A stretch of DNA of 37,263 nucleotides from assembly GCA_000155715.1 (NCBI GenBank), contig DS990607.1:1233-38495 (forward strand), written 5' to 3'. Below are positions 18,624 through 19,110 of this stretch, piece after piece. This DNA is from a gamma proteobacterium HTCC5015. Lineage in GTDB: Bacteria; Pseudomonadota; Gammaproteobacteria; HTCC5015. The translations under genes were made by a program, and so were the position numbers. A model generated the notes under the pieces. That model did not search any database and was not told the DNA's origin. It saw nothing but the letters and a program-made list of their open reading frames with translations. How positions within the stretch are numbered: the stretch's first letter is position 1; each line of letters begins with the position of its first letter.

Positions 18624-18647
18624 TGCAATTCGTCTATAAAAAATAAT

Positions 18648-19049
18648 ATGAAAAATATATTTAGAGTATTAGTAGTTACATCTTTATTGCTTTATTTCAT
18701 ATTTTTGATCACTGATTACTTCAGTGTTTATATTTACGGTAGGGATATTCTTAACGCACTGGAGTGGAGAGGGCATACAGCTAAAGTTAGTTGGGCTAGC
18801 AGCTTATTTTATCCAGTCGTTTTCCTGTACATACTGGCTTCAGTCGGGTTGGTTTTATTTAAAAAATGGGCGAGAAGCTTATTTTTATTTCTAACACTAT
18901 TTAATACATTAATGCTTCCATTCTATGGGCTTGTCGTGGAAGGCCACTATCATGCCTTTTTAGGCGCATTAATAACCCTCATAGATGGCTCTATTATTAC
19001 GCTCGCATACCTATCTAGCTTGGGTAGGCAGTTTAGTAAAATTGCATAA
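18648..19049 (+). CDS. AT-rich small membrane protein of unknown function inserted between zipA and ligA
   Basis: 133 residues with four probable transmembrane segments at about 5-30, 48-68, 76-95 and 100-124, separated by short charged loops (YGRDILNALEWRGHTAK, KKWARS). I recognise no family. Its base composition and codon use (many ATA, TTA, AGA, TTT) are strikingly more AT-rich than smc, zipA and ligA around it, and the flanking ~25 and ~60 bases are AT-rich too, pointing to recent acquisition. No clear ribosome-binding site precedes the ATG (AAAAAATAAT). It is in the same direction as the cluster, so it could be co-transcribed. No inverted repeats or mobility genes are evident at its borders. 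Confidence 0.7.
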   Translation: MKNIFRVLVVTSLLLYFIFLITDYFSVYIYGRDILNALEWRGHTAKVSWASSLFYPVVFLYILASVGLVLFKKWARSLFLFLTLFNTLMLPFYGLVVEGHYHAFLGALITLIDGSIITLAYLSSLGRQFSKIA

Positions 19050-19110
19050 CAATTTATCTAAGCAAAAACTTTGGTTGGCAGCTGGTTTGTGTGTTTAGTG
19101 AATACCTTTT

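Follow-up and report, generated by a model that had tools for sequence, protein, structure and literature searches.

A probable integron cassette between zipA and ligA in the gammaproteobacterium HTCC5015

Between zipA and ligA of the gammaproteobacterium HTCC5015 lies a gene of 133 codons, and the locus raises the question of how it came to stand within this essential pair and what its product might do. The features discussed are collected in Table 1, with positions counted in the window, i.e. the whole stretch of 37,263 nucleotides that was analysed. The reading frame (P0001) is a real one and is read in the same direction as both neighbours. Its ATG follows the zipA stop codon after 24 nt, and a further 61 nt separate its own stop codon from the ATG of ligA, directly before which no Shine-Dalgarno-like stretch was seen by eye. 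The GC content of the ORF is 0.356, compared with 0.50-0.61 in the 19 other ORFs of the window, and its GC3 is 0.353 (0.575-0.722 in the other 19). Among 2000 random pieces of 133 codons drawn from the larger neighbours, GC3 never fell below 0.474 and the codon score, which is -0.258 for the ORF, never below -0.016; the composition is therefore atypical beyond chance. A preliminary description of this DNA had reported an AT-rich, co-directional gene of 133 residues and a ligA without a good ribosome-binding site, and had named GC and codon-usage deviation as a check; all of this is borne out here. No convincing promoter of the ORF's own was found, promoter-like matches being at chance level (2 against 2.2 expected). 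Terminator-like matches numbered 3 against 0.6 expected and were sited inside zipA and the ORF, and Rfam gave no match in positions 18500-19200 at E<=1. Expression of the ORF from the zipA-ligA operon is plausible. Elsewhere in the window, an IS3-type transposase pair (rve and HTH_Tnp_1 domains; 22171-23255, minus strand) is situated approximately 1 kb downstream of ligA.

Table 1. Coordinates of known and proposed features around the zipA-ligA junction, in window positions.
Feature	Position	Strand	Basis or remark
zipA	17130..18623	+	ZipA_C domain, PF04354, E 9.7e-29; proposed left cassette end extends over its stop codon (18621-18623)
Proposed left cassette end, TTAATGCAATT	18620..18630	+	complementary to AATTGCATAAC at 19040-19050 apart from a single additional A
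Four-TM protein gene P0001, proposed cassette ORF	18648..19049	+	133 aa; composition, homologues
Candidate attC 5′ arm (R′′-L′′-like)	19044..19061	+	position matrix; overlaps the ORF stop codon
Weak whole-attC match	19044..19099	+	best in 18600-19200; covariance model run on 601 bases without filters, 9.1 bits, E 0.12
ligA, NAD-dependent DNA ligase	19111..21132	+	downstream neighbour

The encoded protein has four hydrophobic segments exceeding 1.4 on a hydropathy scale (19-residue window, starting at residues 1-13, 47-57, 77-80 and 101-108), in agreement with the four transmembrane segments described earlier. The earlier statement that it belongs to no recognised family also holds, since P0001 matched nothing above the family cut-off in Pfam (best E 0.054) and nothing in NCBIfam. 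For the family as a whole, Pfam, NCBIfam, PADLOC, PHROGs and PDB sequences returned nothing convincing. Among seven family members scanned, one gave a match to the PADLOC ‘2TM effector’ (E 0.0033) and one to DUF2127 (PF09900, E 9.6e-4). The latter comprises small membrane proteins; P0001 itself is unmatched by it, unlike that one member, and the similarity is possibly generic to membrane proteins. A single-sequence AlphaFold model (pLDDT 74, pTM 0.34) was judged too weak for a fold search.

The junction was compared among relatives by searching genome contigs with LigA and taking the best 80 ligA loci. A ZipA C-terminus was detectable upstream of ligA in 63 of these, and in 61 of the 63 the zipA-ligA gap is no longer than 254 nt (10 overlap), compared with 487 nt in the window. 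The two outliers, of 1481 and 1799 nt, contain other ORFs. None of the best 80 ligA loci matches the 133-residue protein at E<=1. In a smaller set of ligA loci, nine had an upstream ZipA match; the upstream ORF ended at most 44 nt from the first aligned ligA codon in eight of them, and 138 nt from it in the ninth. P0001 was likewise unmatched in three genomes of the same family, two of which are only 63% and 73% complete. As the gaps are short and the protein is unmatched at the best 80 ligA loci, the insert is common to no relative examined.

Homologues were sought by profile in overlapping sets of 55, 369, 109, 398, 4, 394 and 40 genomes, and in plasmids. Sixteen were found outside the HTCC5015 genome, which itself contains a single copy. 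All sixteen have reading frames without internal stop codons, the C-terminal end of one (G159) entering masked bases; nine weak matches (E 0.004-0.07) and interrupted matches in G099, G782 and G1027 were left out of the count. Those homologues that were aligned share 19-32% identity with the window protein, and a recurrent pattern consists of W-x-GYG, a stretch resembling FFK-x-WAR and, towards the C-terminus, G-x-ILALSYLS. When plasmids were searched again with homologues as queries, nothing was found, and the plasmid protein as query found itself only. A phage origin was considered and rejected, no match being found in phages and viral contigs by scans that reach close relatives only.

The surroundings of these homologues are informative. 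An attC site begins no more than 21 nt past the stop codon in seven of the 16 (G126, G342, G167, G798, G1221, G1226 and a Moellerella plasmid), and in an eighth (G159) an attC lies beyond the masked stretch. Five of these eight (G126, the Moellerella plasmid, G167, G798 and G1221) also have an attC directly upstream. Covariance-model scores of the eight sites range from 15 to 58 bits; the sites of the plasmid and of G167 belonged to the 14 attC sites from which the model was built, and those of G126 (E 1.8) and G1226 (E 0.15) are weak. On the conjugative plasmid of Moellerella wisconsensis (NZ_CP129023.1, 33045-33479; L055, 10001-10435) the homologue forms a cassette right behind dfrA1, with an attC on both sides. 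The G1226 homologue is a cassette without an upstream attC, beside a chromosomal gene named by eye as acyltransferase-like. The other eight homologues (G022, G257, G516, G225, G792, G1156, G911 and G1000) have no adjacent attC, although in G257 attC sites are found about 2 kb away. The family is repeatedly cassette-borne.

HTCC5015 itself encodes an integron integrase (L068, 12114-13001; TIGR02249, 342.8 bits against a cut-off of 265). The same profile exceeded its cut-off in none of 14 control genomes and in four of ten genomes searched (HTCC5015, G159, G257 and G342). The match covers profile positions 2-275 of 315, thus the C-terminal end of the integrase is missing. At least one attC-like 5′ arm is present at the integrase locus, and at E<=0.5 the covariance model found at least 10 attC-like sites at six places elsewhere in the genome (contigs C27, C28, C29 and C30; L175-L180). 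In the three same-family genomes at least 0, at least 0 and at least 1 were found; these counts, like that of HTCC5015, are lower bounds because at most 150 first-look candidates were scored per genome. By eye the sites of HTCC5015 are canonical, they occur singly at four of the six places, and they accompany AT-richer small genes between apparently ordinary chromosomal genes. A stretch near TTCCCCACRATTAGTRGNCAC is common to several places to the right of the last cassette (L175 4034, L177 3639, L178 4808 and L068 14978). It may be the end of an insertion sequence or a shared target, and this flanking motif of the dispersed cassettes was not found in the window. The first cassette region of the integron also contains a remnant of an IS30-like transposase, recognised by eye (L068, 13820-14275), which is flanked on each side by one copy of a 28-nt direct repeat; the two copies are 96% identical.

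In the anatomy of a cassette, the R′′ box has the form RYYYAAC and the cassette start the form TTRRRY. A position matrix built from the first 18 nt of 31 selected attC sites at seven loci placed its best match in the window, GCATAACAATTTATCTAA at 19044, exactly on the stop codon of the ORF (11.88 bits, rank 1 of 74,492 positions). The lead is narrow, the next two positions scoring 11.69 and 11.32 bits, and two places in a 19-kb locus of the same genome (L047) score slightly higher (12.3 and 12.0 bits). Real attC sites, each scored with its own locus left out, reach 8.1-21.8 bits. An equally good score was obtained by 162 of 200,000 random sequences anchored at the stop codon, and an equally good arm appeared anywhere within 487 nt in 38 of 2000 Markov sequences. 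It is the place of the arm at the stop codon that matters, and not the score alone. Moreover, the boxes at the two ends of the proposed cassette include an exact complement of 8 nt. In shuffled sequences one of this kind arises at a frequency of 0.0043 with the R box as anchor and of 0.04 at any position; an equivalent anchored complement occurs in 6 of 1960 stretches of the window. Complementarity of the start box and R′′ is also seen in cassette arrays. The left end deviates from the expected form by a C in place of G and one extra A.

The other half of the site is not significant. The best right-arm score ranks only 643 of 37,243, the pairing of the arms was reached by 559 of 2000 shuffles, and folding of the attC region as single-stranded DNA gave no signal (z 0.48). 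Default covariance searches over many loci that took in the whole window listed no match anywhere in it, whether the limit was E<=5 or E<=1. The 3′ arm has either decayed or been lost, or is unrecognisable. The preliminary description had seen no obvious mobility sequence here, which stands as far as a complete attC is concerned, but not for the attC-like 5′ arm. The C-terminal part of ZipA already has its usual length (147 residues compared with a median of 146, n = 70). If the cassette were cut out at its proposed edges, ZipA would become 9 residues longer (506 against 497), and one of 70 relatives reaches 157 in this part. The notion that excision restores an ancestral overlap of the two genes was dropped: with 53 of 60 possible right edges the gap comes out at -17 to 24 nt, and a restored junction is therefore uninformative. 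Owing to the insignificant 3′ arm, the weak whole-site match, its absence from default searches and the usual length of ZipA, the exact cassette edges are tentative.

That the gene was acquired, as the preliminary description had suggested, is supported by its absence from relatives, its outlying codon usage and the presence of its homologues on mobile cassettes. As to the route, the cassette-borne family, the integrase encoded by this genome together with its dispersed attC-like sites, the 5′ arm at the stop codon and the complementary ends point to a single promoterless integron cassette, probably placed by IntI at a non-attI site, the zipA-ligA junction. An integrase that was then intact would have inserted the promoterless cassette at this junction, where it would be read with zipA and ligA from their operon, and the 3′ arm of its attC would have decayed since. 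With the integrase truncated and the 3′ arm decayed, the cassette is probably immobile now.

Alternatively, a small gene could have been acquired horizontally through ordinary recombination, illegitimate or homologous, in which case the attC-like arm is a matter of chance and the cassette-borne relatives indicate mobility only. The insignificant 3′ arm, the lack of a listed site in model searches of the whole window and the eight of 16 homologues without an adjacent attC are in keeping with this, and we regard it as an unlikely explanation that nevertheless deserves weight. It does not account readily for the best 5′ arm of the window falling exactly on the stop codon, for the complementary ends of the ORF, or for the fact that the genome also has an integrase and attC-like sites dispersed over several places. 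The preliminary description had also proposed a small membrane partner of the divisome, which would be placed beside zipA for its function. Position and orientation fit such a partner, but recurrent zipA, ligA or other division neighbours, by which the proposal could be judged, were not recognised beside any of the 16 homologues (neighbourhoods read by eye, without domain search), and the protein is unmatched at the best 80 ligA loci of relatives and in the three same-family genomes. A divisome partner is thus very improbable.

The integron reading places the locus among cassettes at non-canonical sites. Loot et al. (2024) is reportedly the primary paper on cassette insertion at attG. Off-target IntI recombination at GNT-type sites has been described (PMC10127599), and attG sites have been named as targets of cassette insertion into genomes (PMC12901181). 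The locus resembles such secondary-site and attG cassettes in its single short ORF with an attC-like arm at the stop codon, and in the integrase and other dispersed cassettes of the genome. In contrast, its attC 3′ arm is unrecognisable, its site is an essential division and replication pair, and its family is unnamed in the libraries searched. Taken together, this is likely a lone integron cassette within an essential gene pair, and several dispersed cassettes occur in the same genome. As a kind it is already known; nothing in the libraries searched gave the family a convincing match, and no description of this family at zipA-ligA was met. The locus illustrates a way in which cassette genes probably move out of integrons and take up places between core genes.

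What the protein does can be approached through its relatives, as the family now offers a testable function, with one member in a toxin-immunity position and one beside a resistance cassette. The former is the homologue of G022, which begins 19 nt behind a Rhs ORF of 1976 residues and precedes a displaced Rhs core fragment, with a GC content of 0.45 compared with 0.65. A gene directly behind a Rhs toxin tip occupies the usual immunity position, and a small protein with four transmembrane segments suits immunity to a membrane toxin. The most likely role would be that of a small inner-membrane protein protecting the envelope; it might, for instance, act as an orphan immunity protein against a toxin that neighbours deliver and that attacks membranes. 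The Rhs-adjacent place of the G022 copy is the sole functional hint, and immunity is the leading but weak hypothesis. In its specific form, a mobile orphan immunity gene would neutralise a membrane-acting Rhs or other contact-delivered toxin and would be steadily expressed from the essential operon, which is compatible with a cassette origin. The G022 arrangement, with its displaced core and lower GC content, the four-TM size expected from general knowledge and the Rhs locus in the genome of HTCC5015 all speak for it. Yet G022 is the only one of the 16 homologues beside a recognised toxin gene, leaving the Rhs link to one genome; no toxin tip lies directly upstream of P0001; and the genes behind the Rhs tips of HTCC5015 are not homologous to P0001. 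We consider this form doubtful.

Orphan immunity genes beside Rhs and T6SS effectors are known, and arrays of them have been described in Vibrio cholerae (PMC5361080) in a paper that also states that there is so far no evidence of an integrase moving effector-immunity genes. The family resembles these in the one homologue in immunity position behind a Rhs tip, and differs in that no toxin gene was seen near the window gene and that its relatives are cassette-borne. Excerpts of the literature on integron cassettes with immunity proteins, Rhs and orphan immunity announced no link between them. A broader proposal, in which cassettes carry a mobile family of orphan membrane-immunity genes directed at Rhs-type toxins and single cassettes lie scattered between core genes in this lineage, the promoterless one at zipA-ligA gaining constant expression, would combine both parts and appears more doubtful still. 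The Rhs locus of HTCC5015 (L047; G000:C30:58000-77000) contains a Rhs ORF of 2515 residues and two displaced cores that differ in their tips; behind each of these comes a small, AT-richer gene, putatively an immunity gene.
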